Shown here one piece after another: positions 3,848 to 18,276 of a stretch of 64,000 nt of DNA. Position 1 is the stretch's first letter. Each line of letters starts with the position of its first letter. This DNA is from Candidatus Hydrogenedentota bacterium. Its GTDB lineage: Bacteria > Hydrogenedentota > Hydrogenedentia > Hydrogenedentales > SLHB01. Location of the stretch: positions 18,951-82,950 of the forward strand of contig JACRLJ010000033.1 in NCBI GenBank assembly GCA_016215105.1, in the 5' to 3' direction. The notes below the pieces were generated by a model. That model searched no databases. It worked only from the letters and a program-made list of their open reading frames with translations, and had not been told where the DNA came from. The translations under genes were made by a program, and so were the position numbers.

Positions 3848-4390
3848 CTACATTGCCTTGTTGAATTCAGCGCGACGGTTCTTCGCCCAGGCAGCTTCGC
3901 CGTGACCGGGATCGGCAGGCTGTTCTTTGCCGTAGCTGATCGTCGCCAACTGCGCGCCCGGAATGCCCAACTGAATGAGGTAATCACGGACGGCCAACGC
4001 CCGGCGTTCACCCAGCGCCAGGTTGTACTGCTGCGTGCCGCGCTCATCGCAATGGCCAGCGATTTGAATCATCGTCTTCGGGTACTTCTTGATCATGTCG
4101 GCATTGCCCTTGAGGGCCTCGCGGGCGTCCGCGCGCAGACTCGAACTATCGAAGTCAAAATAGACAACCTTCAAGCCCGTGGCTTTATTGAAAAGTATGT
4201 CACCCGCGTCCGGCAGCTCGTTCGGATTGCCCTTGGCTGTATCCGTTGCTCCCTTGTTTCCGGCGCCCATGTCCGGATTGACTTGGACCTTCTTCTTGTG
4301 ACAACCGCCCGCCGACACCATCACCAACGCCAAACTCATGGCCAACAGGCAAAAACTTAGGTTCTTCTTCGTACTCATTGTTTCTCCCAA
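3848..4390 (-). CDS. pal: peptidoglycan-associated lipoprotein (OmpA/Pal family)
   Basis: IAGHCDERGTQQYNLALGERRALAVRDYLIQLGI OmpA-like domain; lipobox-type N-terminus. Confidence 0.9.
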   Translation of the reverse strand: MGETMSTKKNLSFCLLAMSLALVMVSAGGCHKKKVQVNPDMGAGNKGATDTAKGNPNELPDAGDILFNKATGLKVVYFDFDSSSLRADAREALKGNADMIKKYPKTMIQIAGHCDERGTQQYNLALGERRALAVRDYLIQLGIPGAQLATISYGKEQPADPGHGEAAWAKNRRAEFNKAM

Positions 4391-4645: not shown

Positions 4646-4695
4646 TAATGGCGCGCTCGAAAGGATTTGAACCTTCGACACCTGGCTCCGGAGGC
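4646..4695. repeat. att direct repeat, distal copy (3' tRNA-Arg fragment)
   Basis: taatggcgcgctcgaaaggatttgaaccttcgacacctggctccggaggc, identical to 16661-16710. Confidence 0.93.
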
Positions 4696-4984
4696 ACCAT
4701 CGGGAACGCCGCCGAACGGCGTAACTCGTTGATTTCTAGTCTACTACACCATTGCAGAAAATGCAAGAATTTTCTTTTTTCTACCCTATTTAGCCCCGTT
4801 TCGGGTACTACCCGTTTCCATTATTGGCTAGCTATCACAGTACGGGTGGGATGTTATTGGGAATGAGTTCTCAATAAGAACCCCGCCCCCGCGCGTCAAG
4901 AAGCGCCACCCCAGACACCCGAGCAATGGGCCCGGGCTCTGGGGTGACTGGCCGCGACGTGGCGAAGCGCCGCAGCAAAGGGGC

Positions 4985-5389
4985 TTAGGTATGAACCATC
5001 GGTATCCCGGGATCGTCACCGTCGTGGCCGACGGGGCTCTCCTCGTGGCTCAGGGTGAACGGTCCACGGCGTATGAATGCCGCGATATCCTGTAGCAGCG
5101 CGCGGCCTGCAGCGCCGGCGAATTCCTCGAGAGCGTTCGGAAGGTCGCATTCGATATCGAATGCCGGGATATCGGGTAACGCGCGGTCCAGTGCGTCGGC
5201 AAGGGCCGCCCCGTCCGCCTCAGTGACCGTCTGGCCTTCCGCGGGGCTCAAGTAACCACCATCAGACTGGAACGGTACAGTGCCCGTAGGCTTCCAGCCG
5301 AAGGACATCCCTATCCGGCACACGCACAGCCAATGGTAGCCGTCGAGGTAGACCCCCGCGCCGTCGTGGCCTGTCAACGTCGTGCTCAT
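4985..5389 (-). CDS. hypothetical element protein downstream of the tape measure
   Basis: Start ATG overlaps the tape-measure stop (ATGA); MSTTLTGHDGAGVYLDGYHWLCVCRIGMSFGWKPTGTVPF... Confidence 0.6.
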   Translation of the reverse strand: MSTTLTGHDGAGVYLDGYHWLCVCRIGMSFGWKPTGTVPFQSDGGYLSPAEGQTVTEADGAALADALDRALPDIPAFDIECDLPNALEEFAGAAGRALLQDIAAFIRRGPFTLSHEESPVGHDGDDPGIPMVHT

Positions 5390-7611
5390 GTCGTGCTCAG
5401 ACGGAAACCACGTCCCTTGAGCGTGGACTGTATCTGTGTCTCCCACTCACGGGAAATGACTCGGGCCAGTTTGGCGATCTCCGCGGGGTTGCTCGCGTCC
5501 AACCGGGCCACGCTGACCGTGATCGGCGATGAAATGGATACGGTGGTATTTCCCGCCCCGCCGCCGGCGCCGCCCCTGGGCATCGTGACATCCGGAAGAA
5601 AGTTCGGCACGTTACTCAGCCGCAAATGGGACGTTTCCGCCGCCGTGGATATCTCGGTACCGACCGGCACGCGGAAGATTCCAGGGCCATTGGCGCCAAG
5701 GATACCCGCCTGACCGCCGGGCGTGATTCCGAGTTCGGGGCCTTCTTCGCCCGCCAGTATCGTGGCCATGCCGCCGCCTGCCATGCCGACAATGCCGCCT
5801 CGGGCTTTCGCGGAATCCACTACGATACCGCCCTCCGCCTTTGGCCGGACAAGGTCAAGGACGCCTCGGGCCTGCTCTCTCGCCCACGCGACGGCCTTCC
5901 CGATGTAGTCACAGATTGATTCCCACGTCCCAGTCCACATCTTCCACATCGAGTCGAGTACCCCTTTCATAGGCTGAAGCATGCTCCCGAATATAGACAT
6001 AAGTCCCGAACCACCGAAGATGCTCGTTCGCACATTGTCATTGATACTCGGGCTCTCGTGGTGGTCCAGACTGAGGCGGTCGAGGTAGAGCTGCATTTCT
6101 GAAGTCGTTTTCTCCGTCTTCACTAACGCCTGCTGCATTGTGGCGTCACGCTTCAACCATGCCGCGATCTCCGCGTCCAGTTGCTTGCGGATTTCCGTCT
6201 TCTGCGCTTCCGTGAGTTGCTTCATGTCTTTGATTTGTTCGCTGGTGTAGCCTTTAGACGCGAAGAACACCGCCTCTTTGGCGTTCAAATCCAACGCTGT
6301 GCGGGCCAGTTCGGAGTTGAATATCTGCTGTTTCGTGGCTTCGGCGCCGGTCAGTAGCCGGATGATCGAGGATGTCTCTTTCTCCTTCGCCTCGATCTTC
6401 AGTTGCGTCAAGTACTGCGCTTTCTGGGCGTCATCCATTTCCTTCATTTTAACTTCATCAATCACCAACCCCCTGGCGCGCAGCGTCTCGATGTATCGTT
6501 GCGTCATCGCGTCCACCTTGGCCTGGGATTCGGCCTGCTGGCGTTCGGCTTCTGTCACGCCCATGATCGCCTTACCGACACCCCAAATCAGCGGGGTGAG
6601 CGCCAACAGCGCAATCCCTGCAAGCCCTACCGGGCCGGTCAGTGCGCCGAACGCGATCCCCAAAGCGCCGATACCGCCGACACCAGTAAGCGCCGCGGCG
6701 GCGCTACCCAGCAGACCGAACGCCGTCACGATACCGGGAAGCGCGATAATTAGCGGGCCAAGCACAGTAGCGAGACCACCAATAACGCCGATGCTCACAA
6801 CTATGATCTTTGTGAGTTCGCTGTGGTTCTTTATCCAGTCAGTAGTACTTATGACCATGCCCTTGATCATGTCGAGCAGGCCCTTGAATCCGCCGCCACC
6901 TGTCAAGGCAGATCCGATTTCCTCCATCATGCTTCCAAACTCATTTTTGAGTTGCGTCCATTTCCCGGTAAGCGTACCAGCGGCGGCGGCGGCGGACCCG
7001 CCAAACTCCGTGGACAGTTCACTGAGAATTAGCTTCTGCGCCTGCATGGTCTGGCCTGACTTGACCAGTGTTTCGATTTGCGCCTTCTGCGATTCGGTGA
7101 ACGAGACGCCCACACGCTGAAGCGCGGACACGCCAGCAATTGGATCGTTGAGCGCCTTACCCAGCTGCATGGCGCTCGACTTCAAGTCCTGCCCCAGCGC
7201 CTGGGACATGTCGAGCATTGTCCGAGTGACCTCGGGGAATACGTCTTTGCCAATGTTCGTGAACGTGAGCAGCATAGATTGTCCGGCAGTGATCGCGTCA
7301 TCCTCGAAAGGCGTCATCCGACTGAGTTCGGTGGATAGCGCTTGGATTGATTCCGCCGTCATACCGGCGGCGCCTTTGGTGCTTTTCAGGACGGCTTCGA
7401 GTTGCGCCGATGCGGCTTCGCTGTCGGCGAATGCCCCGACCGCCAGCCCTAGCCCCCCTGTAATGGCCGCGCCAACGCCGGTAATCGCCGCGCCGATCGC
7501 GAGGGAGTGTTGCTTGACGGTACCCATGATCGAACCGACTTCACCCTCAGCTTTGGAGAGGCCCGTGGTGTCGCCTTTGATCGTTAGTATCGCATCGCCC
7601 AAGGAAATCAT
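5386..7611 (-). CDS. phage tail tape measure protein
   Basis: 741 aa; FADSEAASAQLEAVLKSTKGAAGMTAESIQALSTELSRMTPFEDDAITAGQSMLLTFTNIG; central hydrophobic stretch. Confidence 0.9.
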   Translation of the reverse strand: MISLGDAILTIKGDTTGLSKAEGEVGSIMGTVKQHSLAIGAAITGVGAAITGGLGLAVGAFADSEAASAQLEAVLKSTKGAAGMTAESIQALSTELSRMTPFEDDAITAGQSMLLTFTNIGKDVFPEVTRTMLDMSQALGQDLKSSAMQLGKALNDPIAGVSALQRVGVSFTESQKAQIETLVKSGQTMQAQKLILSELSTEFGGSAAAAAGTLTGKWTQLKNEFGSMMEEIGSALTGGGGFKGLLDMIKGMVISTTDWIKNHSELTKIIVVSIGVIGGLATVLGPLIIALPGIVTAFGLLGSAAAALTGVGGIGALGIAFGALTGPVGLAGIALLALTPLIWGVGKAIMGVTEAERQQAESQAKVDAMTQRYIETLRARGLVIDEVKMKEMDDAQKAQYLTQLKIEAKEKETSSIIRLLTGAEATKQQIFNSELARTALDLNAKEAVFFASKGYTSEQIKDMKQLTEAQKTEIRKQLDAEIAAWLKRDATMQQALVKTEKTTSEMQLYLDRLSLDHHESPSINDNVRTSIFGGSGLMSIFGSMLQPMKGVLDSMWKMWTGTWESICDYIGKAVAWAREQARGVLDLVRPKAEGGIVVDSAKARGGIVGMAGGGMATILAGEEGPELGITPGGQAGILGANGPGIFRVPVGTEISTAAETSHLRLSNVPNFLPDVTMPRGGAGGGAGNTTVSISSPITVSVARLDASNPAEIAKLARVISREWETQIQSTLKGRGFRLSTT

Positions 7612-7630
7612 GACTGCTACCTTTCGTGGT

Positions 7631-8059
7631 TTACACTCGCGCCAACGCGTTGCGTAGACGCTTCATCGGGTTTTCAAGTTCATAGACCGCCTCGAACGCG
7701 GTGACGATCTGTTGTGCCGTGCCGAGACTCACGACTTCCGCCGTTAATATCTGCGGAGAATGCTCCATCAGCGCATCCCGCACCACGAGCAGATCGTCCA
7801 CCGCACCGCCGCCGATCGCGTCCATCACCCCCTGGATAGCCGTGTCAATTCGCTGAATAATGTCCGGGCCCGGTGTGCTCATGACCTCTTGCAGTCCGTT
7901 TACCGGTAGGCCCTTCCGCGCCTGCGTGAACCATTGCACCTTGACGCGTTTGGTCCATTGCACACTGGCTTCGATGTTCAACGCCTTCACTGTCACCGTG
8001 GCCGGTCCGAATTTCAGATCGAGTGTGCCTTCTTCGTTTACCGCGTTCGTGTCGCTCAT
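7631..8059 (-). CDS. small phage tail/tail-assembly-type protein
   Basis: 142 aa directly upstream of the tape measure; position and sequence style. Confidence 0.5.
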   Translation of the reverse strand: MSDTNAVNEEGTLDLKFGPATVTVKALNIEASVQWTKRVKVQWFTQARKGLPVNGLQEVMSTPGPDIIQRIDTAIQGVMDAIGGGAVDDLLVVRDALMEHSPQILTAEVVSLGTAQQIVTAFEAVYELENPMKRLRNALARV

Positions 8060-8080
8060 GATGTTTCTTCCTTCCGTTGT

Positions 8081-8542
8081 TTAGACTGAACCTTCCAAAT
8101 CACGCTTCAAATCGTTCACCGCTTTCTCAAACCCAGGAGCTATGTAGGGACGCGCATCCATTCGCTTCGTCCCAACCTCCAACCAGCCACCGTAGCCGGA
8201 CTGCGTGTAGACGCGGAACCCGATATTGTCGCCGTCCGGCATACCCTCGGACCCGCCCGCACTCGGCATGTCGCCTATGGTGTGTACCGCGCCTTTGCCT
8301 TCGGAAAAGTCGGCCGTGATGGATTTGCGGTTTGTGCCGCCACGGTAGCCGCGTGGCGCTTCCGTCTTGGTAACGGGCAACGGGTTTGCCTTTGCCCATC
8401 CGACCGGACTATTCGTCTTGGCTTCAGCTACCGTCTGATTGGCGCATTCGCGGACGTGGCCGGCAACGATCTTCTTGACCTCTTGTATCGCCGCGTGGAC
8501 CTTCTCGAAATCGAATTGCATGCCCATCGAATTGCCTTTCAA
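8081..8542 (-). CDS. HK97 gp10-like putative tail-component protein
   Basis: C-terminus SGYGGWLEVGTKRMDARPYIAPGFEKAVNDL matches the gp10-type 'vEfGTrkmpArPfl.Pa' signature. Confidence 0.7.
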   Translation of the reverse strand: MKGNSMGMQFDFEKVHAAIQEVKKIVAGHVRECANQTVAEAKTNSPVGWAKANPLPVTKTEAPRGYRGGTNRKSITADFSEGKGAVHTIGDMPSAGGSEGMPDGDNIGFRVYTQSGYGGWLEVGTKRMDARPYIAPGFEKAVNDLKRDLEGSV

Positions 8543-8702
8543 GCTACGGCAGCCACCCGTAGCATGTTCTACATGTGTTACGTGTCAACTGTTTACGAAC
8601 CAAGCCCGCCATTCGTGGCGCCGGGTTCGGGTATCGGTACCTATTTCCGACACCCCGGCCCGCGCCGTAATGCACCAACACGGGCCAGGGCTTCCCGGCG
8701 CG

Positions 8703-8918
8703 TCACGTGAGCAACGAATCGATGGTGGTGACACCGCGCTCCTCGCAAAAAAGAACCAGCGAATCCATCCCTCGGGCCGACGCGCGCGCCTCAATGCCGC
8801 GAATCGCGGCGGCGCTCTGGCCGCACAACCGCAGCAGATCAATGTTGCTTCGGCCCGGAAGGCCCTTGTCATCGTGGGGTAGGCAGGCGTTTCTCTCAGG
8901 TCCGTCATACTGTGGCAT
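8703..8918 (-). CDS. small hypothetical element protein
   Basis: MPQYDGPERNACLPHDDKGLPGRSNIDLLRL...; start overlaps the end of the upstream small ORF. Confidence 0.45.
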   Translation of the reverse strand: MPQYDGPERNACLPHDDKGLPGRSNIDLLRLCGQSAAAIRGIEARASARGMDSLVLFCEERGVTTIDSLLT

Positions 8919-9111
8919 GGCTGTATTCCTTTTCGTTTTCGATGACGCGGCGTGCTGTCGCGTCCAGTTCGTGGTTTCCACTTGGCGTCTCACAAAGGCG
9001 CCAAGCTAGGTCAATCAACTCTTCGCGGGTGGCCGACTCGTAAGGATCAAATTCCACGGGTGGCGGTGTGCGTTTCTCTAACGCCTCAAGACGCGCTCTG
9101 AGTGTTCGCAT
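8905..9111 (-). CDS. small hypothetical element protein
   Basis: 68 aa, overlapping ORF chain. Confidence 0.45.
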   Translation of the reverse strand: MRTLRARLEALEKRTPPPVEFDPYESATREELIDLAWRLCETPSGNHELDATARRVIENEKEYSHATV

Positions 9112-9397
9112 TGATTGCCGTCTCCAATACCGTTAGTCGGCGTTCCAGTTCGCCCATGTCAATCGCGCGTAAGCAGACTTCGCCTATCCGGCAGAATATT
9201 CGCGCTTTCATAGCCGATTCGACACCATCCGCCTCCACTTCGGCGACACACTTTTCGAGCATACAGCGCACTTTGTCTGCGGTGTCGAGATGTACAGGTG
9301 CGGTGAGACGCTTTCTTTCAGCAGCCCTACCAGCACGGGCTTTGCGCTTGGCCTCTCTCTGCCACGCGCGCTGTTTCTCGATGTCCTTATACGGCAA
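9086..9397 (-). CDS. small hypothetical element protein, charged N-terminus
   Basis: MPYKDIEKQRAWQREAKRKARAGRAAERKR...; overlaps neighbours. Confidence 0.5.
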   Translation of the reverse strand: MPYKDIEKQRAWQREAKRKARAGRAAERKRLTAPVHLDTADKVRCMLEKCVAEVEADGVESAMKARIFCRIGEVCLRAIDMGELERRLTVLETAINANTQSAS

Positions 9398-9626
9398 AGT
9401 CTGTCTCCGTCATTCGCCAGTCGCCTACGCTCTCCACGCTCACGGGCTCTCTGCTGTCACCAACGCGCCGATGGACAATCGTCCAGCCGGTCGCCGTTAT
9501 GCGCTCAATCACGGGCGCCGGCGGGCCGAATGGAAACCCGTCTTCGGGATAGAGGATCGTCGCCAATGGCCCGGGACGTGGTATCAGCGCCGCGGATAGC
9601 CGCTCGATGCGTGCGCGTGTTCTCAT
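9387..9626 (-). CDS. small hypothetical element protein
   Basis: 79 aa in the overlapping ORF chain. Confidence 0.45.
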   Translation of the reverse strand: MRTRARIERLSAALIPRPGPLATILYPEDGFPFGPPAPVIERITATGWTIVHRRVGDSREPVSVESVGDWRMTETDFAV

Positions 9627-9799
9627 TACAGGCGCCCCATCGCTTTGCGGATCAAAGCGTTCATCGCCGCGCTGCTATCCGTGGGCGCCACGTTCGGCAC
9701 ACCCGCGCCGGCGCCAGCGTTGGCATTCGCCGGACGCGGCGGTTGTGGAGGCGCCGCTGGGGCTGGGACACCGGACACGCGGCGAACCCAATCGTTCAT
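9626..9799 (-). CDS. small Pro/Ala-rich hypothetical element protein
   Basis: MNDWVRRVSGVPAPAAPPQPPRP...; ends at the start of the next ORF. Confidence 0.4.
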   Translation of the reverse strand: MNDWVRRVSGVPAPAAPPQPPRPANANAGAGAGVPNVAPTDSSAAMNALIRKAMGRL

Positions 9800-9803
9800 C
9801 GTG

Positions 9804-10442
9804 CTACCCATTGGCCACCTGCTCTTCGGCGCCGTCGCCCGTGACGGGCTCGGCTTGCGCGGGTTTGCGGCCCAGAAGTTTGCTCTCGGACAACCTGAAG
9901 CGTTCGTCAAAATCGGGCCGGAACACAGAGTTTAGGTGACTCATAGCGACGGCGAAACGCGCATCGTGGGGTAGCGGCACTGCCCATCCGCCACCGCGAG
10001 TATCCACCCCGCCCGCCTGCTGGGCTATCTCGGTGTACTCGCGGATGTGTTCCTGATGATCCTTGAAGAGCCCATTCAATTGCCCAGCCGCCGCCCGCGC
10101 AGTCTCGTAACCACCCATCAGTATCCGCGCTAGGGGCTCTGCCGCCTCATTGATACGCTGTAGTTCACCGGCCACCTCCGCCGCACAGTTCGGAAGACAT
10201 TGGCGCCGCGCCCGGGCAATCGCGTCTTGTAGGATGGGTAGCCTCGCCTTAGCCGCCGCGGTGGCGTCCTGGGCGGCCTGCATGGCCTTGAGCGCCACGG
10301 CCTCGGCTTTGGCGTCACCGTCGGCGATAGCGGTTTGCCAGGCGGCCTCTGCCGCGGCCTGCCGGGCCTCGAGTGTGGGGATCTCGGCTAGCGCGGCGGT
10401 GTAGCGGGCCTGCAGGTGTTCAACGGGTTCTAATGCTCGCAT
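9804..10442 (-). CDS. Ala-rich coiled-coil hypothetical element protein
   Basis: 212 aa; long Ala/Glu helical N-terminal half. Confidence 0.6.
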   Translation of the reverse strand: MRALEPVEHLQARYTAALAEIPTLEARQAAAEAAWQTAIADGDAKAEAVALKAMQAAQDATAAAKARLPILQDAIARARRQCLPNCAAEVAGELQRINEAAEPLARILMGGYETARAAAGQLNGLFKDHQEHIREYTEIAQQAGGVDTRGGGWAVPLPHDARFAVAMSHLNSVFRPDFDERFRLSESKLLGRKPAQAEPVTGDGAEEQVANG

Positions 10443-10732
10443 TGGTTCAATTCCTTGCTGAGACGTGATATCGTCTCGCGGTGGTTGGCGATCTCGGATT
10501 CCAATTCCTTGCGCCGGGCCCGGTTTGGTGAGCCAGAGAGTAACTCGTGTTGCAGTTCGGTCAGGGCGTCTTGGGTGTCGGCAAGCGCCAAGGCGGCGGT
10601 GGATGATTTGCTTGGTAGGCCATTATTCAAAGGTCGCGTGACCGTTGCGGCAGAGGCGCTTACGGGTGAAACGCGCCGTTTAGACGCCATTATGTAGGGT
10701 ACTGGTACCGAAAATGAGCCCCGGCGCGTCAT
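10430..10732 (-). CDS. small coiled-coil hypothetical element protein
   Basis: 100 aa; ATGA overlap with the upstream ORF. Confidence 0.5.
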   Translation of the reverse strand: MTRRGSFSVPVPYIMASKRRVSPVSASAATVTRPLNNGLPSKSSTAALALADTQDALTELQHELLSGSPNRARRKELESEIANHRETISRLSKELNQCEH

Positions 10733-10950
10733 GGGGCGGCCTCTAACGCGCGTAGCCGGCGCAACGCTTCAACCCGAGTAATACGCCCGGAACGTAGTTC
10801 CTCGAAAAGCTCATCTGGCATTCGCGCCAGCGATCTAGCGCGACAAACCTCATTCCTCGTGAGCCCCAACTCTTTTAGGGTTACAAAATGTACCATGCTG
10901 GTACATTTACTCTTTGGGCGGCCGCGCCCCGCTAGTAGAATCTTGCTCAT
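10729..10950 (-). CDS. small putative DNA-binding element protein
   Basis: LKELGLTRNEVCRARSLARMPDELFEELRS HTH-like; ATGA overlaps on both sides. Confidence 0.5.
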   Translation of the reverse strand: MSKILLAGRGRPKSKCTSMVHFVTLKELGLTRNEVCRARSLARMPDELFEELRSGRITRVEALRRLRALEAAP

Positions 10951-11174
10951 GGCGTCCCCCCGGCCAGCAGCTTTGCCCGTTTGCCTTCCATCTCGGCTAG
11001 GCGCTTACGAGTGGCCCGAATCTGGCGGCCAAGGTAAAGTATCTCTGACCAGTCTACCGCGGGCGCGACGTTAGCGACGTTAGCGACATGAGCTTTCTTA
11101 TGTGATCTAACCAAATATGTTTTGTCTTTTTCCCCGTAGCACATTAGGTGGCTCATGTCGCTAACGTCGCTCAT
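10947..11174 (-). CDS. 75-aa element protein with nonamer-encoded MSDVSDMSH / AHVANVANVA segments
   Basis: ATGA overlaps at both ends; 5' part contains a 20-bp inverted repeat. Confidence 0.5.
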   Translation of the reverse strand: MSDVSDMSHLMCYGEKDKTYLVRSHKKAHVANVANVAPAVDWSEILYLGRQIRATRKRLAEMEGKRAKLLAGGTP

Positions 11175-12950
11175 GTCACAACTTTCTTTGGGCCGTCACT
11201 GCTGACCGGCTTGATTGTCCAACCGCGCTCTGTGCGTGTGTCGCCTTTGGTGATGCCGTCTAACTTGCCGGCGTCTACATACCGTTTGATGATTTTTCCC
11301 ACCGTTCTGGTATGCAATGATGTATTGAGCGCCTCATTCACCGCCTTACAAGCCACCGCGGCTGACAGGAAACTAGCCTGTAGAAAGCCAGCACGTTGCC
11401 GTAGCGCGTCGCCAATAAGGTTTGCTTCCTCGAGATCTTCGTCGTATTCGTCTCTACGCTTCTGATTCTCGGCGACAATAGCGTCTACCCTGTCAGTGGC
11501 GCGCGCCAGTACTTCACTTACCCATGATTGCCAGCGGTCGCGCGCGGTCGTGTACGGCGCCGGTTTTCTGAGAATGGCGCACATGTCGGCGAGTATCTTG
11601 TCACGGTGTTCATTGGCGTATGCTCGCACGTCTTCAAGCCAACCTGGGCGGGGTGTTGGTTTCTTTAACCGGATAATGAATGCGCGGTCAGCCAAATCAC
11701 GCGAGAGGCTTAGTCCGTTGCCACTGATAAGAAATTGCGAAAAGTTCAGACGGGTACCTTCACCAAGAAATAACTGCCGTCCAGAGAATTCCGACGTGGT
11801 AATGAGGCTTTCGAGTAGCGCCGAACTGACTGACAACTTCACGTTGTCAATTCTAATGCACCGCTTTACTCTTGCCGCAGGTGAAAGTAGCCGAGTCACC
11901 AAGTGATCGTCTTTCCCCTTGTCCGGCTCAACCTCAAATAGTCCGCCTGTGAGCGCTCCGATACCTGAAAGTAGTTCGCTCTTGCCGTAGCCTCGGTCTG
12001 GCGCCGTCGAAATGATTGCCGGTCGCGCTCCGGGGAGGCCACCCCAAATAGTCCCGAGAAACGCGGCGCGAGTTAGTGCGCGGTCGTGTTCGGTTTCCCA
12101 GTTATCAAAAAAGGATAGGTACTTTTCAAAATGCGTGCCATTCGGCTCATACCCGACGGGGGGGCGCCAAAGGTAATAGACACCGGAGATCTCTGGTACG
12201 TGCGGAAATTGTTCGACAGACAGATAATTTGTCGCCGTTGCCCTCAGTGACGCGAAAAGTTCACCCTTTGTACACAGCGCCGTGAGAAATGAGTCGCTAC
12301 CCTCCGCCCATTGCATCTCCGCTTGTTCCTGAATATAGGCAAAAAGATCGTCTCTTTTTTCCATGAAACGCACCACACCGTCAACGTCGGCGAACAGCAT
12401 ACCCCCTGTGCGCTTCGGTGGCCTTGGTAAAGACGATATCGTTTTGAGAATTCTAAGTAGCGGGATAGCTTTTTTCCCGCGTTTCTTCTTTTCCTCCTCT
12501 TGAAATTCCTTGAAATTTGCCACTACAGAACACGGGGTGTTAGCTGCTATGGTTCCTTGAGGCGCCGCCGCGTAGCCAGCGCTTGTATCTGGAATGTTTC
12601 GCGGATTCGATTTGCCAGCGTTCAAGCCACTGTGGACCGTTTTCTGCGCTTCCACTTCGGATAGTCCCGACACCATAGCCGCATCTATCAATTGAGATTC
12701 GATTTCACTTTCATCAAGACCAAGGTGAATCAGAGTTCCGAGACTATACGCGGCTGTGTTTAGCGTGTGGTTGCGTACGCCTTCCGACGTTGTGGCGACT
12801 TTCTCAAGTTCCCCTTCGACAGCGGCCCGTAGATAGGCTGTCCGCGCACCATTGCCGCATGAGTGGTGTGTGCCGTTCTGACGCTTTGGCACCGCTGGCT
12901 TTTGGGCGGGTATGAAATCGATGGGGGTTTCGATCAATACCTCAGTCATG
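11171..12950 (-). CDS. phage/plasmid-type replication ATPase/helicase
   Basis: Walker A-like APDRGYGKSELL, primase-C-terminal-like N-terminal region; start MTEVLIETP overlaps the prim-pol stop. Confidence 0.7.
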
Positions 12951-13500
12951 GTGTCACCTCGGGGAGTTGTACCCAATAGCGGAGTCCAGGCTTGAGGACG
13001 TGCGCGCCAGACCAGGACCAGGGAAGTACGAAGTACCCCTTGCCCGGAAGGCGGTAGTCCACTTTGATGCCGCTGACGGTGGTAGACCTGGTGGTCTGAC
13101 TGTCGATCTTGCCATTGTCTCGGAATATGAATTGACCGCCGCGGGGGGTCTTGATGATGCCGCAACGTTGCCCTCGATACTTCGCGATCAATGTGTCCGC
13201 CGTCGCGCGATCATCCACATCAACAAGCGCGTACCCCACTGGAACACGAGCGCCGATCCAGCCGCCGCATTCCGCCCATGCCTTCGCTTGCTCTGGCGTG
13301 ATCGTTTTCGACTTCCACCGAAAGCCCCGCTTGGGTTCTTTGGCGAGGCTGTAGCGCTTGTCCGGGGCGGTCTCGACGTTCTGGTCAGAGTAGCCCACAA
13401 GAGGTAGCAAACCGTCGGCGAAGATGCCAACGTAGACGATATCTCCGCAGTCGGACTGACTGCCGGTGGCGTCCGTTGTGATGGATCGCGCGGTGGTCAT
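12946..13500 (-). CDS. bifunctional DNA primase/polymerase (prim-pol) domain protein
   Basis: GARVPVGYALVDVDDRATADTLIAKY...IIKTPRGGQFIFRDNG...GIKVDYRLPGKGYFVLPWS. Confidence 0.8.
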   Translation of the reverse strand: MTTARSITTDATGSQSDCGDIVYVGIFADGLLPLVGYSDQNVETAPDKRYSLAKEPKRGFRWKSKTITPEQAKAWAECGGWIGARVPVGYALVDVDDRATADTLIAKYRGQRCGIIKTPRGGQFIFRDNGKIDSQTTRSTTVSGIKVDYRLPGKGYFVLPWSWSGAHVLKPGLRYWVQLPEVTP

Positions 13501-13892
13501 CTCGCCCCCCTCTCTTGCCGACGCGCCAAGCGTATTGCGGCCCGTTGGCCCATCGTCAGCGCGCGGGGTTTGCGTCGGTGTGCTCGCTTCGCCCATTCGA
13601 GCCGGTCGCGCGTAGCCCGGACTGAATGCTCTCGGGACTCGACGATTCGCATTCCGGCCCAGTCTAAGTGTTTTCGGTACCCAAGATACCGCTGATGTAG
13701 GCGGGTCAACTCGGCGTCACACCTTTTCACCGTCGAGAGCGGATGCTTTGGGTGTCCAATCCAGAAATTGTACTGCCACACGAGAAAGTCCGCGAGTGCT
13801 TTTCCGAGAGTTCCGGGGCTCGAAATCGGCCTATTTTGGGTACATACCCGCGCCGTTTTCTGGCGTTCCGTTGTAAGTTCTTTCGCCATCAT
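13497..13892 (-). CDS. hypothetical element protein, basic C-terminus
   Basis: 131 aa; ATGA overlap with the prim-pol gene. Confidence 0.5.
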   Translation of the reverse strand: MMAKELTTERQKTARVCTQNRPISSPGTLGKALADFLVWQYNFWIGHPKHPLSTVKRCDAELTRLHQRYLGYRKHLDWAGMRIVESREHSVRATRDRLEWAKRAHRRKPRALTMGQRAAIRLARRQERGAR

Positions 13893-13911
13893 GGTCTTGA
13901 ACCCCTGACGG

Positions 13912-14223
13912 CTAGCGCCGTGAGCCAGCAGTCGCGCAACGGGCTTTCGCCGACGCTACAGCCGCCGCCCGCTGGGCAGGGGTCCGCCTGGGTGTGGGTT
14001 TGACTGTGGGCGTGGGGTCGGTGTCGGCCTTGGCCAACTCCTCGCCGAAGCGCCGCAGGGATTCTTGGGATACGAGGATGCGCCCGCCAATTCGCGCGTA
14101 CTCGAGTTTGACGCCTTTCAAGCCCTTTCGAGCCCAGCGCCACAAGGTAGGTATGCTCGGGCGGTGCGGAAGGGTGGCCGCGGCCTCGGACAACGTGAGT
14201 AGTTGTTCTGCTGTCGATATCAC
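13912..14223 (-). CDS. DUF1580/MerR-like HTH protein, putative excisionase/regulator
   Basis: GTG start with AGAGGAGAT upstream; LLTLSEAAATLPHRPSIPTLWRWARKGLKGVKLEYARIGGRILVSQESLRRF. Confidence 0.72.
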   Translation of the reverse strand: MISTAEQLLTLSEAAATLPHRPSIPTLWRWARKGLKGVKLEYARIGGRILVSQESLRRFGEELAKADTDPTPTVKPTPRRTPAQRAAAVASAKARCATAGSRR

Positions 14224-14264
14224 GTGACGATCTCCTCTGGTTCGAAGCGGTTTCAAAACAAAAA

Positions 14265-14340
14265 AGGGCCGCAGCACCAGACCTCGAAATAGAAGTTCGC
14301 TTTGCGCGCCCTTCGTCTCGGGATCTGGTGTTGCGGCCCT
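14265..14340 (-). terminator. long-stem intrinsic terminator/attenuator in the leader of the DUF1580 gene
   Basis: About 17-bp stem AGGGCCGCAACACCAGA/TCTGGTGCTGCGGCCCT (one G-U) with 42-nt loop, then TTTTTTGTTTT on the minus strand. Confidence 0.75.
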
Positions 14341-14405
14341 ATCGGTGCCCTAGTGGTTGCCGATTCGCACGGCCTAGTTCACTCTATGGGTCAGATTCAA
14401 CTGAT

Positions 14406-14440
14406 GTAGTGACTCTACACTACTGAGAACTGAATGTCAA
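14406..14440 (-). promoter_or_regulatory. sigma70-type promoter with palindromic operator over the -10
   Basis: Minus strand TTGACA-17 bp-TAGAGT; GTAGTG-actcta-CACTAC palindrome (14406-14423) exactly brackets the -10 hexamer (14412-14417). Confidence 0.7.
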
Positions 14441-14506
14441 TAAGAATTTAACGCAGTGGTTTTCTACGGTTTCGCCGCCTTACACCACTGGGCCGCGCGA
14501 ATGGAA

Positions 14507-14539
14507 CGCCCCGAGTCCGCGGGGTTGCGGCTCGGGGCG
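14507..14539. repeat. GC-rich hairpin in the element's noncoding region
   Basis: CGCCCCGAG-T-CCGC-GGGGTT-GCGG-CTCGGGGCG, one bulge. Confidence 0.6.
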
Positions 14540-14748
14540 CTTTGGGTACGACGGAATTTTTCCCTGCGGGTTACCGGCGCGCGCACGGTCTGACCCGGCC
14601 TTGCTTTCGTGTGGGACGCCTCGCCCCGGTCAGGACGGCTGCTACTGCTTGGATGCGAGTGTACCCGGTGGCGCCGCGAACATCAGCGCCTCGTACACGA
14701 GATCGGCAAGGCTCATGCTGGCGTAGTCGTGCTCTGGGGTGTGCGTCT

Positions 14749-15207
14749 TCATGAGGCACCGCCGATTCGCGCTTGACGGCGCGCCACCGCTTGCGCCCGG
14801 ATTCGCTTCTCTTCCTGTGATTCCTTGCTCAACTTATCGAGACGGCGCCGCTCCCCGAGCTTCTTGGCATGGGTCATATTCTTCGGTTTTAGGCGGTCCG
14901 TATACGGCCAGCGGTCCAGGCCGAGCGAGCGAAGCTGTCCCTTTCGGGTACACCCCGCGAATAGCGACTTGAATGATTCGTCAAGTTCTTTTGGACTGCA
15001 ACCGAACGGGGTGTATTCAAGGTTCGTGAGGAAATGCGATATCCGTTCCAACACCATGTCGCGGACTTCCTCGCAGGGATCTGAGGTGATGCTTTTCTCG
15101 GCAAGTATCTGTTTGAAGAAGTCCCAAACATCAAGCGGGATATCGAATGAGACTCGGACGGTTGCGGGTGTCTTCGTGGCGGGTGTGGTACTCTGTTTCT
15201 TAGCCAT
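14749..15207 (-). CDS. hypothetical element protein, RHH-like N-terminus
   Basis: 152 aa; TVRVSFDIPLDVWDFFKQILAEKSI; highly charged C-terminus. Confidence 0.55.
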   Translation of the reverse strand: MAKKQSTTPATKTPATVRVSFDIPLDVWDFFKQILAEKSITSDPCEEVRDMVLERISHFLTNLEYTPFGCSPKELDESFKSLFAGCTRKGQLRSLGLDRWPYTDRLKPKNMTHAKKLGERRRLDKLSKESQEEKRIRAQAVARRQARIGGAS

Positions 15208-15276
15208 GGTGAAAAGCTCCTTTTTCGTCGTGGTTAGGCCGCCCGGGCGCTCATACGCCCGCGGTGGCCGCTTTGT

Positions 15277-16548
15277 TTATCCCAGTTTCGAGAATACGTC
15301 CAGCGCGCGCCGGGCGTCCACCTCTGCATAGATCTCCGTCGTGGATGCAGAACTGTGGCCAAGCGCCACCTGTGCGCCCTCAAGTCCAAATTCTTGGCGA
15401 ATGCGGGTTGCGGCGGTGTGGCGTAATTGGTTTGGCGACCACGATGGAACGCCTACCTTCCCATCCGATTCTTTCCGCGCCTTCGTGTCGGCCCGTTCGC
15501 ATCCGCGCCGGACAGCCTGCGCATACGCCAAGACGCTGTAGCAGTCGCCGACTACCCGTGTTGACTTCTTGGCGTTCGGCATTTGGTCGGGGCGCCGGTG
15601 GCTTAATGCGGCCGCGTGACGCTCGGCTTCCGCATGACGGGGCGAGAACAGGAACGCGCCGACGGGCCGCTCCAGCAGCCACGGCTTGAGTATCTCTTGT
15701 GCCTTTGGCCCAAAGTACAGGGTACGCGCGCGACCGCGGTAGGCCGTCTTGTGTTGCGCCAGTTCGGCGGTCCACACGGCGCCTGTGCGGTTGATCATGT
15801 TGGCCTTGAGCACAACGACTTCGCCGGGTCTGGCGCCGCTGTATCGCTGCAATTGCACCATGGCCCAAACTTGCCGCGAGACATACGGCTGGATAGCGTC
15901 AACGTGGGCGTCCAGGACGGGCCTCACGGGCTCGGGTTCCTTTGCGAGACTCCTACCCCTCTTCAACCCGCCCAGCATCCCCAACGCCACCGCCGCCGCC
16001 GCGGGAATCAACTCTTTCGCGGCAGCCCAGCGCCAAGCCAGCTTGACTACGCCCGTCATGGCATTGATTGAGGTACGGGCCAACTTCTTGGCGATCCAAC
16101 GCTCCCGTACTGCGTCCAACTTCGTCGGCCCAAACTGCCCCGCGTCGATATCGGCGTAGATCTCGAGCACGCCATTCAGAGCGCTCTGGACGCGCGCGAT
16201 TTGCCCCGAGGGTGATCCGTCCGCTTTGACGTAGTACGCTTTGGCGTAGTCCAGAAACATGGCGCACACCTCGGCTACGCTGATATCGGGTTGCGCTGTT
16301 TCAGGTGACGTATCGGGCGCGTCGGGGTCTTTGAATGGGTACACATACCCGCCGCGGCGCCATTTGGAGAGCATGTCGCCGTACTTCTTCTCACAGTCCG
16401 GGTCATCCCGTCTGCAAAGGTAGACTTGATGTCCACTGAGCCGGACGAAGGCGCGGCCCGATGCGGCATGGGTACAGAGCTTTGGTGTCTTCTCTTTCCG
16501 CTCGGGCGTTTTGTCGGGATCTGTTTTTGGTACGTTTTTGGGTAGCAT
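15277..16548 (-). CDS. int: tyrosine recombinase/integrase
   Basis: YSGARPGEVVVLK, NQLRHTAATRI, ALGHSSASTTEIYAEVD catalytic motifs; next to the att/tRNA. Confidence 0.9.
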   Translation of the reverse strand: MLPKNVPKTDPDKTPERKEKTPKLCTHAASGRAFVRLSGHQVYLCRRDDPDCEKKYGDMLSKWRRGGYVYPFKDPDAPDTSPETAQPDISVAEVCAMFLDYAKAYYVKADGSPSGQIARVQSALNGVLEIYADIDAGQFGPTKLDAVRERWIAKKLARTSINAMTGVVKLAWRWAAAKELIPAAAAVALGMLGGLKRGRSLAKEPEPVRPVLDAHVDAIQPYVSRQVWAMVQLQRYSGARPGEVVVLKANMINRTGAVWTAELAQHKTAYRGRARTLYFGPKAQEILKPWLLERPVGAFLFSPRHAEAERHAAALSHRRPDQMPNAKKSTRVVGDCYSVLAYAQAVRRGCERADTKARKESDGKVGVPSWSPNQLRHTAATRIRQEFGLEGAQVALGHSSASTTEIYAEVDARRALDVFSKLG

Positions 16549-16660
16549 GTGCGAACCTCCAAGGGTGCGATTGGTACGAATACCAACCATTTCCGTGAGT
16601 TCGTCCGCACTGCCACGCTGGCAGGTATCAAGCTAAGTGCTTGATTCGGCAGGATTTAAT

Positions 16661-16710
16661 TAATGGCGCGCTCGAAAGGATTTGAACCTTCGACACCTGG
16701 CTCCGGAGGC
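16661..16710. repeat. att direct repeat, integrase-proximal copy, embedded in tRNA-Arg
   Basis: 50 bp identical to 4646-4695. Confidence 0.93.
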
Positions 16711-16739
16711 CAGTGCTCTATCCACTGAGCTACGAGCGC
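16664..16739 (-). tRNA. tRNA-Arg(CCG)
   Basis: GCGCTCG...CGAGCGC acceptor, anticodon arm CTGGC-CTCCGGA-GCCAG, T arm GGTTCAAATCC, encoded CCA. Confidence 0.95.
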
Positions 16740-17660: not shown

Positions 17661-17677
17661 GTTGGGTTGGTTCCTTT

Positions 17678-17733
17678 CAGGGTCTGGGGTACAGGGTACA
17701 GGGTCTGGGGTACAGGGTACAGGGTACAGGGTG
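17678..17733. repeat. heptamer tandem array (8 x 7 bp)
   Basis: CAGGGTC TGGGGTA CAGGGTA CAGGGTC TGGGGTA CAGGGTA CAGGGTA CAGGGTG. Confidence 0.93.
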
Positions 17734-17859
17734 CGAAATGCACGGGTCATGTTGTACGGTAGGGTAAGTTCCACGTGGGCGATTATTGGTCGTGATGCGA
17801 GGGTGTCTTCTTGCGAAGGCCCAAATCACTTACGAAGCAGTGACCTTCGAGGGAAGAGC

Positions 17860-18249
17860 ATGGGACTAAAGAATTACCGGGAATTGGATGCCTGGCAGAA
17901 GGCTATGGATTTGGTAGAATCCGTTTACCGCCTCACAGCTGTGTTCCCTCCGCACGAGAGATATGGACTCGCTGGCCAAGCACAACGGGCTGCTGTTTCC
18001 ATACCCGCAAATATCGCTGAGGGATACGGTCGAATACACCGAGGCGACTACTTGCATCACCTTTCTATCTCCAGCGGTTCGTTGGCCGAATTGGAGACTC
18101 ACCTGACCATTGCTGTTCGCTTGAATTACGTTCCGCGGGAAGACGCAGTCGAAACCTGGGGCCACGTCCGAGAGACCGGCAAACTCCTTACGAAACTGAT
18201 GCAATCGCTAGACGCGAAACAAAAGCCGTCTCGACCGAAGAAGACCTGA
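17860..18249 (+). CDS. four-helix bundle protein (S23/IVP family)
   Basis: MGLKNYRELDAWQKAMDLVESVYRLTAVFPPHERYGLAGQAQRAAVSIPANIAEGYGR is the diagnostic family signature. Confidence 0.92.
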   Translation: MGLKNYRELDAWQKAMDLVESVYRLTAVFPPHERYGLAGQAQRAAVSIPANIAEGYGRIHRGDYLHHLSISSGSLAELETHLTIAVRLNYVPREDAVETWGHVRETGKLLTKLMQSLDAKQKPSRPKKT

Positions 18250-18276
18250 ACCCCAGACCCTGAACCCTGAACCCGG
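18245..18276. repeat. heptamer array, inverted relative to 17678-17733
   Basis: CCTGAAC CCCAGAC CCTGAAC CCTGAAC CCGG; reverse complement GGGTTCA/GGGTCTG units. Confidence 0.88.

Follow-up and report, generated by a model that had tools for sequence, protein, structure and literature searches.

In Vibrio cholerae, the PLE satellites bring a tape measure protein (TMP) of their own together with a tail assembly chaperone (TAC); these proteins, in some cases with a baseplate hub, replace the helper phage's parts (Nature 2026, PMC12987554). The resulting chimeric tails are functional and about 10 nm shorter, and deletion of tmp cuts transduction by 96-99.9%; other satellites, too, have predicted tmp genes (PMC12987554). 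Experimental demonstration of a satellite-borne tape measure with its chaperone is so far confined to the satellites of V. cholerae. Here we describe a 12.0-kb element at positions 4646-16710 of a 64,000-nt stretch of a Candidatus Hydrogenedentota contig (the window, whose coordinates are used throughout). A satellite, not a deleted prophage, is the best reading of the element: it is probably a phage satellite carrying a siphophage tail-length block, the TMP of which would be built into helper tails. An earlier note, made from the letters of this DNA, had stated that known satellites usually lack a tape measure. This view is dated, as PLEs possess both a TMP and its chaperone, with which they assemble chimeric tails (PMC12987554), and for the same reason the element does not represent a wholly new satellite principle.

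Insertion at a tRNA-Arg gene

The element is bounded by two 50-bp direct repeats that are 100% identical, the right one lying within the tRNA gene that served as the integration target. The open reading frames (ORFs) of the element were scanned against the Pfam and PHROGs families, which identified a tyrosine integrase beside this tRNA. The features that define the insertion are the following:

4646..4695, no strand: attachment site attL, a 50-bp copy of the tRNA-Arg 3' end, exact direct repeat
16661..16710, no strand: attR, a 50-bp copy within the intact tRNA gene, exact direct repeat
16664..16739, minus strand: tRNA-Arg(ccg), integration target (ARAGORN; Rfam RF00005)
15277..16590, minus strand: tyrosine integrase (PF00589 1.1e-12; phrog_1 7.9e-26)

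Reading into the element, the integrase gene begins at a distance of 74 bp from the tRNA. Every called gene between the att copies lies on the minus strand, most of them overlapping or abutting. The exact repeats, the integrase adjoining an intact tRNA-Arg and the leftward gene set described in the earlier note are all borne out. The related genome G012 has an uninterrupted tRNA-Arg(ccg) immediately next to pal and ybgF, with 248 bp between the tRNA and pal. In the window, 268 bp lie between pal and the left att copy, and the remainder of the tRNA is cut off from pal by the element. The G012 locus is the natural empty site of the insertion; the insertion is real, because the att copies are exact and an empty counterpart exists at pal-ybgF. 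As in satellites, the locus is thus a bounded integrative element with its own integrase and att sites.

Just outside the element, at 17676-18264, the repeat GGGTCTGGGGTACAGGGT occurs in direct copies and, 549 bp away, in an inverted one; these copies surround an ORF that resembles a four-helix-bundle protein.

A tail block without recognised head or packaging genes

The only virion genes recognised in the element are those for a neck/tail-completion protein, a TAC candidate and a TMP:

8081..8527, minus strand: HK97-gp10/Neck1-type tail-completion protein (phrog_5, annotated 'tail completion or Neck1', 4.8e-10; 38% identical to its positional counterpart in contig L182)
7631..8059, minus strand: TAC candidate, 142 aa (36% identity, 6.6e-26, to the gene preceding the TMP gene in L182)
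5386..7611, minus strand: tail TMP, 741 aa, intact (phrog_27166 1.7e-33; PF06791 5.2e-10)

The family matches confirm the gp10-like and tape measure genes proposed in the earlier note, and its 'small tail-type' protein is more exactly a TAC candidate from its homologue and position. The genes are separated by 21 bp (gp10-TAC) and 19 bp (TAC-TMP), with no gene debris in the gaps. The 142-aa protein has no family match and no sequence match in the PDB, and its AlphaFold model (pLDDT 39.5) is unusable. A phmmer search with it over all fetched loci retrieved a single homologue outside the window, in the IMG/VR contig L182 (IMGVR_UViG_3300014656_000148). This siphophage contig encodes a portal and a minor head protein (from sequence and position), a capsid protein (phrog_3990), connectors, a tail terminator (phrog_123) and a 199-aa protein in the tail-tube position, as well as a gp10 homologue (38%, 1e-29), followed by the 142-aa homologue and then a 1365-aa TMP. 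Its order is gp10-terminator-tube-TAC-TMP; with gp10-TAC-TMP, the window keeps this order and lacks the terminator and tube genes. Since the L182 homologue occupies the interval between tube and TMP, which is the TAC position, we regard the 142-aa ORF as a TAC candidate. The element therefore has its own TMP and, beside it, a putative chaperone, the gene pair of a tail-manipulating satellite.

The window TMP is a mosaic. Over residues 1-299 it shows 55% identity to the TMP of a prophage in genome G020 (best alignment 55% over 303 aa), residues 221-568 resemble the TMP of a prophage in G018, and residues 592-668 are 65% identical to the L182 TMP. These three phages (L182, G020:C696 and G018:C323) share homologous TMP segments and neck proteins with the window, and L182 also the TAC candidate; unlike the window, they have head and tail modules, and their TMPs are 1365, 543 and 811 aa long, respectively. 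No homologue of the element's replication genes was found in their fetched stretches. The terminase large subunit (TerL) of the G020 prophage (L006:18311-19864) has, by eye, an apparent intein-like insertion near Walker A, with a ...THNS junction.

No ORF of the element matched a terminase, portal, protease, capsid, tube or tail-tip family in Pfam or PHROGs, and none of the unassigned ORFs has the length that TerL or an HK97 capsid protein would need, in agreement with the head and packaging genes having been reported missing in the earlier note. The virion and packaging set is incomplete, as in a satellite; with TerL, portal and major capsid protein all lacking a match, the element does not qualify as a complete small tailed phage.

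Compact relatives in Hydrogenedentota

Searches with the helicase and the integrase covered 68 Hydrogenedentota genomes, in which the relatives lie mostly on metagenome contigs, several of them truncated. The integrase family of the window is found at about 45 loci in 22 of the 68 genomes. Complete relatives with two att copies measure 5.2-11.1 kb, and many are flanked by tRNA genes:

L269, 5.2 kb
L283, 6.4 kb
L276, 6.8 kb
L290, 6.9 kb
L040, 7.3 kb
L265, 9.0 kb
L279, 11.1 kb

A further relative, L044 (6.7 kb), carries homologues of the window's 212-aa and 96-aa proteins. The usual order in these relatives is integrase, DUF1580 protein, replication protein and small ORFs, often with a terminase small subunit (TerS) or a TerS-like helix-turn-helix (HTH) protein; related integrase, DUF1580 and replication genes recur with att sites on both sides and without a structural module. 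TerS is recognised in L264 (Terminase_2, PF03592, 2e-20, with no TerL seen), in L277 (Terminase_2, 1.5e-17, the contig ending just after TerS) and in L040 (phrog_57, terminase small subunit, 7.8e-6). L280, L283 and L080 encode proteins of one common HTH family, phrog_645, which is not named terminase in PHROGs; we infer that these are TerS-like. A second att copy was not found within the fetched stretch at five loci (L262, L264, L266, L274 and L289), and, because of these loci and of the many truncated contigs, larger kin with the window integrase may exist. Of the same integrase-to-TMP architecture that the earlier note proposed to look for, the searches recovered recurring compact att-bounded kin, some with a TMP, and not the exact gene set.

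Other compact elements carrying a tape measure

Four further compact elements carry a TMP gene:

L279 (G067), 11.07 kb, tRNA-Arg(ccg): exact 53-bp att copies; 948-aa TMP (phrog_28 4.6e-43)
L008 (G004), 9.86 kb, tRNA-Arg(tct): diverged att copies with a common anticodon-side core; 722-aa TMP
L080 (G028), truncated by the contig end: integrase 46-47% identical to the window's; DUF1580-like protein, D5-type primase, TerS-like protein
L092 (actinobacterial metagenome-assembled genome): tRNA-Gly, integrase, HTH protein, RepA-like ATPase, small ORFs, 570-aa TMP

The L279 TMP is 38% identical over 630 aa to a 1745-aa TMP of G061. L008 also encodes an HK97-type capsid protein (PF05065 2.3e-32), and its integrase belongs to a different family from that of the window. 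In L080, a Mu-F minor head protein is 41% identical to that of the G020 prophage, and the TMP is cut by the contig end; in L092, the contig ends 87 bp past the TMP. By similarity, the TMPs of the compact elements come from at least three separate phage sources. Among 40 newly fetched integrase loci, many of them truncated, one (L279) has a TMP. TMP-based scans returned mostly ordinary phages, with an integrase at only a few loci and no terminal repeats among the loci returned, and IMG/VR scans with the TAC candidate, the helicase, the integrase and the L092 TMP yielded no further TMP satellites. L078, where a TMP C-terminus is followed by host-like genes and cut by the contig start, was not counted.

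It is quite possible, if somewhat short of probable, that satellites outside Vibrio have repeatedly adopted the takeover of tail length as a strategy. Hydrogenedentota elements and at least one actinobacterial element would then have captured TMPs independently from different phages, with a varying set of chaperone, neck, terminase-small, minor-head or capsid genes, so that satellite rulers rather than capsid remodelling would define the particles.

Two side observations concern these elements. In L279, a sigma-70 region 2-like protein (7131-7808, 2.4e-6) directly follows the TMP and may be a late regulator. In L008, an iteron-like array of 22-bp repeats (4065-4264) lies inside a 262-aa replication-initiator-like ORF, which is weakly related to proteins of the satellites L265 and L269.

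Regulation, replication and small ORFs

Between the integrase and the small ORFs the element encodes:

14749..15207, minus strand: 152-aa ORF
13912..14277, minus strand: DUF1580/HTH_17 protein, excisionase/regulator-like (PF07618 2.2e-8; phrog_66 1.2e-5)
13497..13892, minus strand: 131-aa ORF, no significant family match
12946..13596, minus strand: 216-aa ORF, diverged and prim-pol-like, sharing 4 bp with the helicase gene (position of PF09250 in single-chain homologues)
11171..12949, minus strand: replicative helicase, 592 aa (40-44% identity to the helicases of L033, L035 and L036)

The earlier note correctly named the DUF1580-like gene; its 'RHH-like' label for the 152-aa ORF gained no support, as this ORF has no family match. 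Of the prim-pol/helicase replicon that it proposed, the helicase stands through its homologues. The 216-aa ORF itself has no Pfam match, and it is a putative prim-pol because single-chain homologues carry PF09250 at its place. Homologues of the helicase sit in other compact elements, several of them tRNA-flanked, and the element thus has a replication module of its own. A second locus in the same genome (L033, G000:C25:44000-63999, contig 25) has a related helicase (identity also recorded as 48-50%) and its own integrase, lacks a TMP and adjoins restriction-modification-like genes. The motif GTTAGCGACRT occurs three times within 100 bp at 11065-11177, twice direct and once inverted, where the helicase gene ends and the 75-aa ORF begins. 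These are the window's only exact matches, and they are possible operators or iterons.

The ORFs between the helicase and the tail block, and the last ORF of the element, are:

10947..11174, minus strand: 75-aa ORF, 4-bp overlap at each side
10729..10950, minus strand: 73-aa ORF
10430..10732, minus strand: 100-aa ORF
9804..10442, minus strand: 212-aa coiled-coil-like protein, 38% identical over 199 aa to one encoded by L044 (6.7 kb)
9387..9626, minus strand: 79-aa ORF
9086..9397, minus strand: 103-aa ORF, negative in the TerS profile test
8905..9111, minus strand: 68-aa ORF, weak homologue in satellite L269 (phmmer E 2e-4)
8703..8993, minus strand: 96-aa ORF, homologue in satellite L044 (blastp 1.6e-6)
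4985..5389, minus strand: 134-aa last ORF (gene call), 4-bp overlap with the TMP gene, no family matches

The last ORF had been given as 153 aa; it exists, and a better start at 5389 gives 134 aa. The 103-aa ORF was considered as TerS from the look of its C-terminus and rejected when a profile of the TerS-like satellite proteins did not match it. PADLOC found no defence match among ten element ORFs.

Interpretation of the element

The anatomy of the element, its bounded insertion, the empty site, the recurring architecture and the homology of its tail genes to those of phages are directly supported. The earlier note had left a choice between a prophage with a clean deletion and a satellite that supplies or redirects tail length and assembly. 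We favour the satellite, because att-bounded kin of 5-12 kb recur, the TMP lineages are several and the tail genes abut within 19-21 bp without debris.

In such a satellite, the element would excise via its own integrase and replicate by its own prim-pol/helicase, and a tailed helper phage would supply most particle parts. The satellite TMP and chaperone would substitute for the helper's, the TMP being placed in the helper's tail tube and tip, and the outcome would be a chimeric tail, the length and DNA-ejection core of which are set by the satellite. A TMP acts as a ruler, with about 1.5 angstrom (0.15 nm) of tail per residue; at this ratio the 741-aa TMP would specify a tail near 110 nm. The satellite could gain by evading a block on the tails of its helper, by competing with the helper TMP, or through tail length, entry specificity or altered DNA ejection. 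We infer the dependence on a helper, the packaging, the incorporation of the satellite TMP and any such advantage.

Several points weigh against this interpretation. No helper phage has been identified: searches of the element's own genome with the TMP and neck protein return this element only, and as to a resident helper, the sole TerL-family match there proved to be a RecQ-like gene, in an insensitive search that also missed the G020 prophage. The profile test found no TerS in the element, nor did a cos or pac site come to light, though no search was aimed at one, and the searched collections contain no close copy of its exact gene set. The TAC is assigned from its position and a single homologue, and a TMP is a minority trait, present in 2 of the 8-9 complete elements with the window integrase family.

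The neck-TAC-TMP block of a satellite could instead be an anti-phage device, in which excess or incompatible TMP and chaperone poison the tail assembly of a helper or competitor. Tail assembly is a known target of defence, by Tai (PMC11364771) and by Rta of PLE11 (PMC12987554), and the window TMP differs in length from those of related phages (741 vs 543, 811 and 1365 aa). However, known tail blockers are dedicated inhibitors and not full TMP-TAC pairs, the comparable PLE pair is required for transfer, and the full-length TMP, the candidate chaperone and the neck protein stand together as in a working module. We consider this reading unlikely.

It also seems improbable that the element is the cryptic relic of a formerly complete siphophage prophage that lost its head, packaging, tail-tube and tail-tip genes. 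Complete phages do have homologues of all three tail genes, neither a helper nor a close sister element is known, and with many contigs of the integrase family truncated, larger kin could exist. Yet such a relic needs several separate gene-exact deletions that left no debris in the 21- and 19-bp gaps, the ORFs and att sites are intact, other compact elements bear other TMPs, and the replication and integration genes match those of small att-bounded elements rather than those of the tail-gene donors. It is very unlikely that the element has no phage stage at all and is a plasmid-like integrative element or a conjugation-mobilised island with the tail genes as passengers: related helicases do turn up alongside different cargo, as in L035 and L033, but same-integrase relatives carry TerS, the family scans found no relaxase match among the element ORFs, and an intact chaperone-TMP operon would be an odd passenger.

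Comparison with known satellites

The PLE study closes with the suggestion that manipulation of tail assembly may be wider in satellite biology (PMC12987554). Elements of the window type would be independent cases in another phylum, with siphophage-type TMPs from at least three origins and with a different integrase and replicon. They make it testable whether satellites swap tape measures generally, and whether the swap benefits tail length, DNA ejection or the evasion of defences that block tails. For annotation, a compact TMP element without head genes should not be labelled a prophage remnant by default.

PICMI is likewise a minimal satellite with integrase, regulator and primase (PMC10803314); it has no recognised packaging or virion genes, whereas the window has a tail block. 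The PICI and P4-like satellites share with the window element a similar size and the order integrase-regulator-primase, and TerS occurs in its sister elements. Unlike them, the window element has a TMP, no match to AlpA/Stl, Sid, Psu, Delta or other signature families, and no TerS by the profile test, and it is not assigned to these groups. The cf-PICIs also carry some structural genes, with a tmp predicted in some of them (PMC12987554, Extended Data Fig. 10), but they have genes for capsid, portal and connectors as well as for the two terminase subunits, and it is the tails that they steal (PMC10690885); the window element has no capsid or packaging gene match and does not belong to them. The PLEs (PLE1, PLE4 and PLE11) are alike in having their own TMP and TAC and in using the helper's capsid and most of its tail parts, as the window element would also do. 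They differ in their mean size of 18 kb (PMC10803314), in having the virulent, contractile-tailed ICP1 as helper and in the possible baseplate hub. The window element is placed outside the PLEs by its Hydrogenedentota rather than Vibrio host; in contrast to them, it is a 12-kb tRNA-Arg element from a different phylum, with a tyrosine integrase, a siphophage-type TMP and a neck protein in place of the hub.

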